Shown here piece after piece: positions 5,574-55,289 of a stretch of DNA of 64,000 nucleotides. The notes under the pieces were generated by a model that was not told where the DNA came from, did no database searches, and saw nothing but the letters and a program-made list of their open reading frames with translations. Position 1 is the first letter of the stretch. Every line of letters starts with the position of its first letter. The position numbers were made by a program, and so were the translations under genes. This DNA comes from Xestospongia bergquistia (lineage: Eukaryota > Porifera > Demospongiae > Haplosclerida > Petrosiidae), in contig OZ014421.1 of assembly GCA_963965975.1 (NCBI GenBank), positions 4,019,001-4,083,000 of the forward strand. Reading direction: 5' to 3'.

Positions 5574-5734
5574 GTACTAAATTAGCCTTGTAGCCAAACT
5601 TTCGCAATAGAAAAGAGCCTGGTAACTACTGTTTGCGTGTCAATGTGATGTCAATAATTACGCGAAAGCACAGGCAGTAATGACCAGGGTTTCTTTTCTA
5701 TCACAAAAGTCTGGGTACGAGGCTAGTACTGAAT
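5574..5734. mobile_element. Satellite-borne MITE copy 5
   Basis: Body 5583-5725, 143 bp. It is the 3,249-bp-offset partner of copy 3. Confidence 0.88.
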
Positions 5735-6918
5735 AAAAACACTCGTCCAATTTTATTGAGACTTGCTACAAAATATACCAGTTACTAAATTTCAAAAAGA
5801 TTTACGATAGGTTAGTTAAGATAACAAATGCACTAAAACTAAGGGCTAAAGCTTACTGAATTTAAAAGTCATGTTAGATATACTATAGCACATGGAGTAC
5901 TACTTCTCTGACTGTATTTGTTACTACTGTCTTTCCCTTTGGTTGAAACAAGGAATTTCATTGTCTTGGAATTACTGCAGAGAACACTGTCAAATGACTT
6001 CCCTGCATGGAATACAGTTCCTTCTTCTGTTTTGATCTACAGCCCTGCAGAAGTAAAGTCCTGACACATTCATTGCTAAAATGAAGTAATGCAGTCTAAG
6101 ATTTCTAGTACAAACCATTACAAGCTGATACTGATACAAAAGTAGACACAATAAGTTGAAAGTCAAGCTAGATATACTAACGCACATGATGTATTGACAC
6201 TTGACTGTATTTACTTACCCTTGGGCTATAGTGAGGAAGATATATTGTCTCAGACTTACCGTAGAGAACACTGTCAAATGACTTGGTTGAATGAAATCCA
6301 GTTCCTTCTTCTGTCTTGCTAAACAGCCCAGCAGAAAAAGTCATGTCTAATTAGTTGCTAAAATGAAATAATGCTGTCTAAGATTTCTAGTACAAACGTT
6401 TACAAGCTGATACTGATACAAAAGCAGATACATTGGGGGTAAAAAGCCTTTAAAAACACTTGACTAATATTATTCAGACTTGCTACATTGTACTAAATAT
6501 ACTGGTTATTAAAGTGTACATTACACAGACAAGGAAAAGTGATATATATGTTTTAAAATGACTTATCACAGCTTAGTTAAAGATAACAAATGCACTAAAA
6601 CAAAGGGTTAAAGCTCATTGAATTTAAAGTCAAGCTAGATATACTAACACATTTGAAGTATTGATACTCTGACTCTATTTATTTACCCAAGGGCTGTAGC
6701 GAGAAACGCTAGTGTCTCCAACTTACTGCAGGGACAATGTCAAATAACTTAGCTGAATGCAATCCAGTTCCTTCTTCTTTTTTGCTAAAAAGCCCTGCAG
6801 AAATAAAGTCGTGACTCATTGCTTGCAAAAAGGAAGTGATGCAGTCTAAGGTTTCTAGTACAAACTATTACAAGCTCATACTGATACAAAAATAAAGACA
6901 ATGGGGGTAAAAAGGCTT

Positions 6919-44707: not shown

Positions 44708-44737
44708 TATGGCATTCCAAACTGGACAAAATTATGT
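44708..44737 (+). mobile_element. Solo terminal sequence of the 3.9-kb transposon family
   Basis: Thirty bases from TATGGCATTCC to AAATTATGT are identical to the outer end of the transposon at 51349, after which the sequence diverges at once. I find no inverted partner nearby. It is either an end fragment or one end of a diverged relative. Confidence 0.75.
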
Positions 44738-44813
44738 AGACTCTTTGACCCACAAACCTCATGTACTTAGCTACGTGAGAGCCCTAATTAGTTAGACAGT
44801 AACAGCAAGCTTA

Positions 44814-51120: not shown

Positions 51121-51350
51121 ACTAAAATTAATTCACAAGTGTACGGAAAAATAAATGATACAAAGTTTGTAATGGCTTATATAATTGTATTAATTAAATT
51201 TTCCTTGGTTTAGAATGATGTTGTTTGATATCAGAAACAAGTTAAAGAAATAGACCATTCCCAATCACAGACAACATCAGACCAATGTATAATGTCTGTA
51301 AGTCTAGTGCAACAATCCCAGATTAGGTTATTTATATTGATATCTATCTA

Positions 51351-51783
51351 TGGCATTCCAAACTGGACAAAATTATGTTGACAAAAACACCATTACCTAG
51401 ACAACATCGCCATGCTCAAACAGACAAAAACACTATTACCTAGACAACATCGCCATGCTCAAACAGTGCTTCATTCATGTCAGCTAACTAGTATTGTTGT
51501 TCACTGTCTGATCAATAGACAACATCTATATGCTCAACTTGAACACAGTGCTATCGTCATTGTGTGATTGTGGTGGATCCACAGACAAGATCATCATGCT
51601 CAACAATACTATCATTCATCGTTCTCAGAATCAGACAAAATCGTCATGCTCAAACAAAATCGTAGTGGTCAAACGCCCCGCCCAACGGAACTGACGTCAC
51701 ATGTCGTCATATGAATTGTTAATAAGATTAATTATTATTAATTATTAAATTGCTAGCAATCTATTTAATACGTATTAACACAT
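51351..51783 (+). repeat. Left inverted arm of the transposon
   Basis: Carries two copies of a 43-bp subrepeat (ACAAAAACACTATTACCTAG then ACAACATCGCCATGCTCAAA), then at least three looser repeats of the core ATCNTCATGCTCAA, then a GC-richer stretch CGCCCCGCCCAACGGAAC. The repeated CATGCTCAA core is a candidate transposase-binding site. Confidence 0.85.
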
Positions 51784-51985
51784 TGTTGTAATACTTCAGA
51801 TAATAGAGATTCTTGTGCAGTTGATAACTTTGATAGTGCCTAAGGGAGTAGCATGCTTTCTTTTTAAGTGAATTTACAATTGTTATGCCAACATGTAATC
51901 GATGAGGCTTACTACTTTGATGAGGACGAAGGCCTAAGTTCTGATCATGAGATCTTGAGTCAGAAACAAATTTAGAAGTCATTTT
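51761..51985 (-). CDS. Small ORF inside the transposon, unrecognised
   Basis: From an ATG near 51,983 on the minus strand it encodes about 73 residues (starts MTSKFVSDSRSHDQNLGL) and ends inside the left arm. It is basic, with no known motif. It could be a terminal exon of an element-encoded protein or chance. Confidence 0.25.
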   Translation of the reverse strand, partial: KMTSKFVSDSRSHDQNLGLRPHQSSKPHRLHVGITIVNSLKKKACYSLRHYQSYQLHKNLYYLKYYNNVLIRIK

Positions 51986-52645
51986 TATTGTACAATGTAT
52001 AGCCAATAAAGACTACTAAAGGATCAGCCTCGGAATATAATTATAAATAAATCTGAAAGGGGAAGGAAGAATTTGCTTTGGGAAATTTGGTGTGAAGATA
52101 ATGAAAGAAGATTGGAATAATGATCAGATATCAGTGGACTAGAATACTCAGATGACATGATAAAGCCTGTGATTAGTGTTATTAGGAGATAACTCTATAA
52201 GTCTAAGATGTTTTGTCTTTGTGGATGGATTTCTCAAAAATGGTTTCCATTTAAAACAAATTTAGGCAGATAGAATCTTTCATGACAATCATCTCTTGTG
52301 TACACAGAGCCGACCTAACTGTTTTACTGAAAAACAACCTACAGAAGCCGAGGCAGACATCTAATTCTATTTTGTAATTTCATATTCTATTTTGAAATTT
52401 TCAAAAAATATTCCAATTCCAATTTTATTTCTTATCCTTTGATGGAAAATATTTAACAATTCAAATTGAGCTCAATTAAGTGAAGTGAGCACAGTGAGGA
52501 GTACACATGAAAACAAATCTATTATTGATAATATATAAAACAGTAGTAAAGATTATTATAAACTATTTACTTTACACAGATATTATATACCTCTAGTTTA
52601 AATATCAAACACTTCACTTATGTATAATAATTATAGAATAATGTA

Positions 52646-52653
<8 letters not shown>

Positions 52654-52736
<83 letters not shown>
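52654..52736. repeat. (AT)n microsatellite
   Basis: An uninterrupted TA dinucleotide run of about 80 bp. A second short run lies at 52795-52812. Between them, 52758-52783 is a hairpin with perfect 11-bp arms TTTACCCATAT/ATATGGGTAAA. Confidence 0.95.
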
Positions 52737-52737
<1 letters not shown>

Positions 52738-52997
52738 TGTTTCATTTGCATGGCTAATTTACCCATATAACCATATGGGTAAATCAATCAACACATATAT
52801 ATATATATATACATTTAAGTGTTAATTTGTTTCTATCTCTGTCAACTAAGTTGATCACTTCAATAACTGCATAGCATGAAATTACCAGACACAGTTCTAA
52901 TTATCAGTAATGTGAACTAATGTAAAAAGTAAATTTAAACACATTATTTGTTTAATTCAACATATTATACTATAACATTGTGTAATAATCTTTTAAT

Positions 52998-53470
52998 CTA
53001 ATACTGTGCATATTCATAATCTGATATATCACTGGTGACACCTCTTATCAATTGCAAGAACACATTTCTTCTACTATATGATGGACTGGTCTGCAGTTGA
53101 GGATCTGGTATATCTTTTTTCTGAAAAATGATTAAGATCAAATGATAATCTACTCTAATTAATTACCAAACCTTTCTGTTAATATACACAGCCGTTCCTG
53201 ATATCAATATTATTATAACAGTAGTTAGTAAAAACAGAATGATAAGTATACAACCAAAAGTTACTATAACTGTCAATAAAATAATAGTATAGTCCTCTGC
53301 TAATGGTTGAGTTGGAAGTGAATTCCCAGCTTCTGTAAAAAAATCACTCTTAACAGTTGTTTATGAGGAAGATTACCTGTACCTACTACTATTGTAGTAA
53401 CTTAGTTTGCAAATGACAGGCACAGAAATAGCTCAGGGCAGTGTAGAGCTAAAAAGAAAATCGAATAGAC
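52998..53470 (-). pseudogene. Receptor-like membrane segment and cytoplasmic tail inside the transposon
   Basis: Three minus-strand exons with plausible splice borders are seen. The first (about 53458-53385) has a TAA in the frame that joins to the next. The second (about 53335-53170) reads EAGNSLPTQPLAEDY, then a hydrophobic stretch over 25 residues long (IILLTVIVTFGCILIILFLL onward), then the anchor YINRK. The third (about 53121-52998) reads KKDIPDPQLQTSPSYSRR and ends ISDYEYAQY and a TAG stop. This is the architecture of the end of a single-pass receptor with tyrosine sites in its tail, and does not belong to any transposase I know. I infer capture of host exons by the element. Confidence 0.5.
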
Positions 53471-53639
53471 CACATGGGCTATTGTTTGAGGCTATACACT
53501 AAATGATACTTTCAGTTGATGAACCATTACTGTCTGTCATTATCTGTTTGCACTACAACTACCAACATTTGGTTTAAAAAGTAATGTTGCTCTCTCTATA
53601 TACAACCACAACTAGGTTGATTATATTTACTATACATAC

Positions 53640-54810
53640 CTCCATGGATGACCATCTTCCACCTGATGAGCTTGTGGTTTCCATCAATATGCCTATAACA
53701 AATGTGTAATTATATGTAAACATTAATTTTATACAACACTTATGACTTATAAGTACAACATTTCCCACAGATGAAATGTCCAATATGACAGTCTATTAGA
53801 TACTATGTGGCTGTCTGTTACTGGGTATTTGAATGCATGGTACATATTACCACATAATATATTTGGCTTGACTTGCCATAAAAACATAGCAGATTCATCT
53901 GATATTACTCAGTTAGCACTTTCACATCACAATATAAAAATTTGCTATAAGAACACTAATTGCTAACCACAGTACTGTAATAATGAAGTAAAGAAAGAAT
54001 GCACAATATTTACCATAAAGCATTTGGTCCCGCAACAGAGTAGCATCGACGGTGTATTCTAGCTGCTCGTCTTAGAGACTAATTGACAGGACAACTCTTC
54101 GCATGCTCTCAATAACTCTACTTTTTTGGATAATGAGCCCACGTGAGAGTAACGCCCCCCGAACAAGTGACAATCCAAAATCCATTGTAACCTGTTGTTA
54201 GTATATAAATAATTTTTATAACCAAAATTCAAACACTTCTATTATATCATGTACCAGTGGATGTCAATGTTACCTGTAAAATATTAAAGATTATGTCATC
54301 TAGTTCTTCATTAGAAATCTGTGTGAAGTTATTCCCTATTCCAAGACCAAACAGTTCTCTTCGTCTTCTTAAAGTTCTTTCAGACACTCCAAGAATCATA
54401 GACATTTGATGGAAATTGAATCCAAGCTCTAACAAAGATTCTAAATCTTCTTTACGAATATGGTATGATGGCCGTCCAGGATGTCCTGTTCTTTGACAAG
54501 AAAGATGGTGGTTAGTAGGGAGGTTGCTAGAATCAGGTTGTATCCGAAGGGTCCATTCCCCATAATGGGAACACAACCTTTGAAATTCTCCTATTACATA
54601 TTCAATATCTCTTATGACTTCTTGCGGAGTATGGTCATTTTCTAATACCCTCCCTAAAATCACTCAAAGGACACTTATACAGTCTTCAGCCCTAAAAAGT
54701 AAGTTCTCTGCCAAATTTAAGTCGTCGGTGTTATAGTGACGATGGAGTTGAGATGACAATCCCAATAGGTACTCCAGAAAAGAGTCTATATCAAAGGTTG
54801 AGCTCGTCAT
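53640..54810 (-). pseudogene. Integrase-type (RNase-H fold) transposase, broken
   Basis: Exon 1 (54810-54274) starts MTSSTFDIDSFLEYLLGL. It has a TGA at 54664-54666 and then a helix-turn-helix region (GRPSYHIRKEDLESLLELGF, ILGVSERTLRRRRELFGLG). Exon 2 (54191-54014) encodes SLVRGALLSRG, RVIESMRRV and, after a one-base frameshift, ARIHRRCYSVAGPNALW. Exon 3 (53692-53640) continues HIDGNHKLIRWKMVIHGG. The Trp codon is split correctly across the exon 2/3 junction. This matches the integrase-core proteins abundant in cnidarian, fish and sponge genomes, in which HIDG.HKLIRW carries the first catalytic Asp. The remaining catalytic part is not found before the receptor-like exons. The start is the ATG flush with the right arm. 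Confidence 0.7.
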
Positions 54811-55284
54811 GTGTAAATGCGCATTAAATAGATTGCTAGCAATTTAATAATTAATAATAGTTAATCTTATTAACAATTCATATGACGACATGTGACGTCA
54901 GTTCCGTTGGGCGGGGCGTTTGACCACTACGATTTTGTTTGAGCATGACGATTTTGTCTGCTGCTGAGAACGATGAATGATAGTACTGTTGAGCATGATG
55001 ATCTTGTCTGTGGATCCACCACAATCACACAATGACGATAGCACTGTGTTCAAGTTGAGCATATAGATGTTGTCTATTGATCAGACAGTGAACAACAGTA
55101 CTAGTTAGCTGACATGAATGAAGCACTGTTTGAGCATGGCGATGTTGTCTAGGTAATAGTGTTTTTGTCTGTTTGAGCATGGCGATGTTGTCTAGGTAAT
55201 AGTGTTTTTGTCTGTTTGAGCATGGCGATGTTGTCTAGGTAATGGTGTTTTTGTTAACATAATTTTGTCCAGTTTGGAATGCCA
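54811..55284 (-). repeat. Right inverted arm of the transposon
   Basis: Inverted counterpart of the left arm, but with three 43-bp subrepeats instead of two, which accounts for most of the length difference. Confidence 0.85.
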
Positions 55285-55289
55285 TATGT

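Follow-up and report, generated by a model that had tools for sequence, protein, structure and literature searches.

IS3EU transposons are described as having TA..TA termini, usually with 6-bp duplications (PMC10045372), and the available account of fungal IS3EU families that carry TET genes reports TAYGG..CCRTA ends together with extra genes (PMC12730594). Capture of host sequence by DNA transposons of animals is known from Pack-TIRs, 370 of which have been reported from 100 animal genomes (Tan et al. 2021, PMC8277862). As outlined in that report, gap filling accounts for the origin of most single-copy cases and multicopy families reflect transposition after replication fork switching, and plant Pack-MULEs are named beside them (PMC8277862).

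We describe here a DNA transposon of the sponge Xestospongia bergquistia that shares features with each of these systems. On the basis of its sequence, the element is best filed as IS3EU-type with Pack-TIR-like capture. Its TATGG..CCATA ends fit the fungal TAYGG..CCRTA pattern and the TA..TA termini given for IS3EU/GingerRoot elements (PMC10045372, PMC12730594). As in those elements, so far as the accounts describe them, an integrase-like DDE transposase with a helix-turn-helix (HTH) front is present and extra genes are aboard, one of them opposite to the transposase; 6-bp duplications were seen in two of five copies. Unlike them, it has terminal inverted repeats (TIRs) of more than 400 bp, and it carries a HECT gene together with a receptor fragment rather than the TET/JBP and alpha-kinase genes mentioned in those accounts. 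The resemblance to animal Pack-TIRs lies in host-like sequence inside a TIR transposon, with related genes elsewhere in the genome and several copies; in contrast to what is outlined for Pack-TIRs, the captured block is found in long copies together with the transposase core and HECT, receptor-free relatives occur in the same genome, and a single parental locus was not found (PMC8277862). With Pack-MULEs the element has gene fragments between TIRs in common. The transposase family and ends of Pack-MULEs differ from those of this element. Among the papers listed in literature searches, titles and the openings of abstracts showed nothing on this element.

The window analyzed is a stretch of 64,000 nucleotides (C11:4019001-4083000), and searches were carried out against a genome of 146 Mb in 21 contigs. 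Within the window, a DNA transposon copy with an internal deletion spans 51349-55286; its features are listed in Table 1.

Table 1. Features of the transposon copy in the window (window positions)
Feature	Position	Strand	Remarks
Left terminal inverted repeat	51349..51783	+	Start TATGGCATTCC; with 43-bp tandem subrepeats
Subterminal element sequence	51784..52486	.	Common to relatives without the receptor block; window offsets up to 1186
AT microsatellite	52655..52737	.	By the left edge of the captured block
Captured receptor block remnant	52879..53340	-	80% DNA match to C2:1734775-1735220
Receptor tail exon	52998..53120	-	Ends DYEYAQY plus stop; tail frame 52998-53162
Receptor membrane-helix exon	53163..53335	-	Membrane-helix frame 53163-53360
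Internal deletion junction	53388..53394	.	7-bp overlap; ~2.1 kb missing relative to L009, ~11 kb relative to the C10 copy
Transposase exon C stretch	53662..53691	-	HIDGNHKLIR, start of rva_4 region
Transposase exon B stretch	54090..54176	-	Frame lost beyond it in the window copy
Transposase exon A with helix-turn-helix	54247..54810	-	HTH exon 54247-54663; in-frame stop 54664-54666
Right terminal inverted repeat	54809..55286	-	End GGAATGCCATA

The initial annotation had described arms pairing over more than 400 bp. This was borne out: 51380-51783 pairs with 54809-55212 over 404 nt at 98%, and pairing of the outermost bases extends to 51349 and 55286. Inside the arms are 43-bp tandem repeats, present in two copies on the left and three on the right. 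The element termini are TATGGC...GCCATA, of IS3EU type, and both ends of the window copy, which were checked, follow the TA..TA pattern. In an end scan, which may miss weaker ends, TA precedes TGGCATTCC or a variant of it at 17 of 18 distinct ends. Among five copies in which both ends were found, L009 and L010 are flanked by exact 6-bp duplications (TGTGAG and CCTTTT, respectively) located outside TATGGC and GCCATA; no such duplication was found flanking the window copy, L011 or the C10 copy. From this flank check and the IS3EU reports, TA is taken to be part of the element, with a duplication of 6 bp where present. A Tc1/mariner element with a 2-bp TA duplication was considered and ruled out by the 6-bp repeats outside TA in L009 and L010 and by the rva_4 core of the family. 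L011 has left-end-type arms of about 1.2 kb at both its ends, and a single end each was found in the sequence examined of C8, C4 and C11b.

Transposase exon A and stretches of exons B and C lie on the minus strand of the window copy, as do the helix and tail frames, so that the single-strand arrangement proposed at the outset holds. A frame of a relative ending in HIDGNHKLIR matches positions 2-21 of rva_4 in a Pfam search. The later catalytic part of the transposase is missing in the window, also as proposed, and the core exon is present in longer copies. With an in-frame stop in exon A and the frame lost at exon B, neither transposase nor a simple chimera is expected from the window copy.

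In order to find further copies, the left arm and the interval 52850-53500 were used as queries. The left arm gave at least 38 matches, and no place on C2 is among those listed. The interval gave 20 matches in the genome, the window included. Seven are further copies that match over 1-545 or 1-535 of the query at 90-97% DNA identity and contain the helix/DYEYAQY exons, five are fragments from the transposase-side end (95-100%), one is a C2 place at 80%, and six are diverged at 67-75% (five on C2, one on C10). Another family fragment, at C4:3.69 Mb (L018, L037), is silent on the receptor block, since it covers the transposase end only.

The fullest copy seen is that on C10, with long TIRs and 14.9 kb between its ends. 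In the orientation of the window, its order is left TIR, receptor block, HECT (+), integrase core (-), HTH exons (-) and right TIR. The C10 core matches PF24764 rva_4 in Pfam (E 3e-62); among 94 matches to the family core, four places belong to the family and the remainder are more diverged. The idea that the receptor exons had taken the place of the catalytic part is thus wrong, because in C10 the core exon and HECT separate the transposase front from the block. The HECT C-lobe matches PF00632 with E-values of 1.6e-8 in C10 and 1.4e-10 in C8, and the remaining HECT-like frames have no HECT match in Pfam. A query from the HECT side gave nine matches at five places, namely three receptor carriers and two places on C1 (L022 and one more). 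In the C8 copy, a reverse-transcriptase frame (L047:2339-4689; RVT_1 E 2.5e-5, below the cut-off) is nested within the HECT region; it may be a Penelope-type element. Downstream of the receptor-free relative L022, a weak DDE_3 match at 5640-6266 (E 0.0022, below the cut-off) probably belongs to another element.

Relative to C10, the sequence lost at the junction of the window copy includes HECT, the integrase core exon and most of the captured block. L009 and L010 have one deletion relative to C10 in common, in which C10 position 3902 is joined to 12767, and more is missing from the window copy than from these two. Deletions aside, the window copy and both of these copies are collinear, which argues that the window element is not a chance arrangement.

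Sequences related to the block are concentrated on C2. The FN3-like exon of the block gave 39 matches, of which 30 lie at C2:1.72-1.91 Mb, two elsewhere on C2 and two at C10:4.87 Mb; the other five come from four element copies, so the exon is present in four of the eight copies. It is deleted in the window, L009 and L010, and C11b, in which HECT, the core and the helix/tail exons are present, also has no FN3 match. Twelve of the 30 matches at C2:1.72-1.91 Mb span 98-99 of 99 residues at 87-93% identity. This region contains FN3-like receptor exons in a large cluster spread over both strands, and its helix/tail exons are only 44-63% like those of the element. DNA similar to the middle piece of the block also occurs at C2:2.28-2.39 and 4.34-4.37 Mb.

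In L049, the only host gene that was read from end to end, the exons are a signal-peptide/Ig-like one, two that are FN3-like and one for the helix. The block retains one FN3-like exon, tyrosine-motif exons, the helix and the tail; exons with the motifs YAEL, YSEV and YAEM occur both in the block and in C2 loci. The Ig-like and second FN3-like exons had no protein match in the six element sequences searched, some of them partial, and in C8 and C10 similarity at the DNA level begins within the Ig-like exon, about 95 bp before its end. FN3 scores fall below the Pfam cut-off (E 0.0059 to 0.084) and the Ig-like exon has no Ig match in Pfam; FN3-like and Ig-like are therefore labels based on weak scores and on the pattern of the sequence. 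The helix frame had Pfam hits to viral proteins (E 0.1-0.32) and an FN3 frame one to a coronavirus spike model (E 0.0082); all were below the cut-off and were dismissed.

Comparison with receptor-free relatives delimits the insertion. L017 aligns to C10 at 376-1139 and 6170-6347 with 13 bp between these segments, in the place of which C10 holds 5.0 kb; relative to C4 it aligns at 290-1073 and 5972-6191 with 155 bp between. L022, which also lacks the block, aligns to C10 at 211-664, then at 6393-6517, and then along HECT from 7275. The C2 host loci align, in pieces, within the gap (C10 1299-5942; C4 1523-5973). Together these alignments show that HECT was already aboard when the receptor block arrived. 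Host-type DNA thus lies between the TIRs, is absent from L017 and L022 and is present in the C2 cluster, as in a Pack-TIR. Compared with the C2 loci that were read, the block lacks collinearity and has one piece in inverted orientation, suggesting a rearranged donor or several steps. In C10, the members of an imperfect inverted pair of 67 bp (81%) lie close to either edge of the block (L012:1194-1260 and 5992-6057).

The middle of the block (C10 4020-5360) was also considered as a dispersed repeat. Among the best 25 of 90 rows, 18 are on C2, five are family copies and two are on C5, and the best C2 place is C2:1726680 at 84%; a 392-bp piece gave 22 rows, comprising six family copies, four on C2 and 12 short ones elsewhere. 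With strong matches on C2, in family copies and at one C5 place, a dispersed repeat was rejected, but one stretch of ~100 bp and other short pieces are dispersed. The search for a donor gene yielded the related C2 cluster at 1.72-1.91 Mb and stopped short of the exact donor: the best non-family matches are 80% identical for the helix/tail and 84% for the middle piece, and the closest chromosomal helix/tail locus, at 80%, is degraded.

We consider it highly probable that the element in the window is a long-TIR transposon of IS3EU type that has lost internal sequence, is non-autonomous and contains a passive captured fragment of C2-type receptor genes. The C2 loci, the block-free relatives and the further copies support the initial proposal that receptor exons were captured by a cut-and-paste element. 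The fullest copy has a transposase (HTH exons and rva_4 DDE core) on one strand and, on the opposite one, HECT as an older passenger gene; in one lineage the block resembling the C2 receptor family lies between the left subterminal region and HECT. It is hypothesized that transfer ran from host to transposon. Entry of the block would be due to repair or template switching within the element. Because the block is rearranged, this may have taken more than one step, and what entered would be a passive fragment without protein function. The order of events was HECT first, the receptor block later and then deletion; it can be read directly because one genome contains relatives without the block, long copies that carry it, copies with deletions and the host gene family related to it.

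Three other readings were weighed against capture followed by deletion. Were the helix and tail exons part of an ordinary transposon protein, with the C2 genes as domesticated or inserted copies of it, their presence in the window and seven other copies would fit. The diverged relatives L017 and L022 nevertheless share TIR sequence (and, in L022, HECT) without the block, the signal/Ig-like and second FN3-like exons of L049 are missing from the element copies save for the ~95 bp of Ig-like end in C8 and C10, and no family end was found on C2, either among the TIR matches listed or in the three loci read (L031, L048 and L049). With the frame also decayed in four of eight copies, we regard this origin as very improbable. 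It is unlikely that the two arms are separate insertions, or the ends of two recombined copies, flanking intervening DNA. The flanks of the window copy do differ (TCTATC versus TGTTAA), but its interior is collinear, bar deletions, with L009 and L010, both of which have matching 6-bp duplications. The window copy may have arisen through recombination of two family members.

That the window copy encodes a chimera, with a DNA-binding/integrase part joined to a membrane tail through a splice from transposase exon C to the receptor helix exon, is scarcely credible in our judgment. The initial annotation had envisaged such a product as a possibility. By sequence reading, the donor of exon C and the acceptor of the helix exon share phase 1, so the joint would keep frame, an agreement expected in ~1 in 3 cases by chance. 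Against this, the stop in exon A and the loss of frame in exon B leave the chimera unsupported for the window copy, the core exon intervenes in C10, and constraint on the helix and tail was not seen.

Under capture followed by deletion, the condition of the cargo is that of a fragment in decay. The helix/tail frame is broken by a stop in C8, by frameshifts in C1b and C4 and by an insertion in C11c. Across the 28 pairs of the eight copies, pN is 0.039 and pS 0.025 (ratio 1.55), divergence is alike in coding (3.6%) and non-coding (4.3%) sequence, and pN/pS relative to the C2 relative is similar (1.47). There is no sign of constraint on the helix/tail cargo. The ratios above 1, based on few changes only, could reflect diversifying selection; those for the FN3 exon are mixed, from 0 to 2.14, also with few changes. 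Judged from these frames, the captured receptor cargo is probably non-functional. We consider it improbable that the captured exons (FN3-like, tyrosine-motif, helix and tail) are expressed from the long copies, either by themselves or through splicing to exons of the element or of the flanking host DNA, and that the transposon serves to spread exons for signalling tails from a fast-evolving receptor cluster genome-wide, possibly exchanging sequence with the cluster. The findings suggest that the carriage of extra genes, as reported in the available account of fungal IS3EU (PMC12730594), occurs in an apparently animal-like genome with Ig/FN3-like receptor genes.

The end scan was redone on 22 sequences with all matches kept, and its sole addition was at window position 44708. 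Position 55286 is the only right-type end within six mismatches in the window, and its flank does not match that of the added end. The latter, at 44708-44739, is a lone left-type end of the transposon family with one mismatch in 32.
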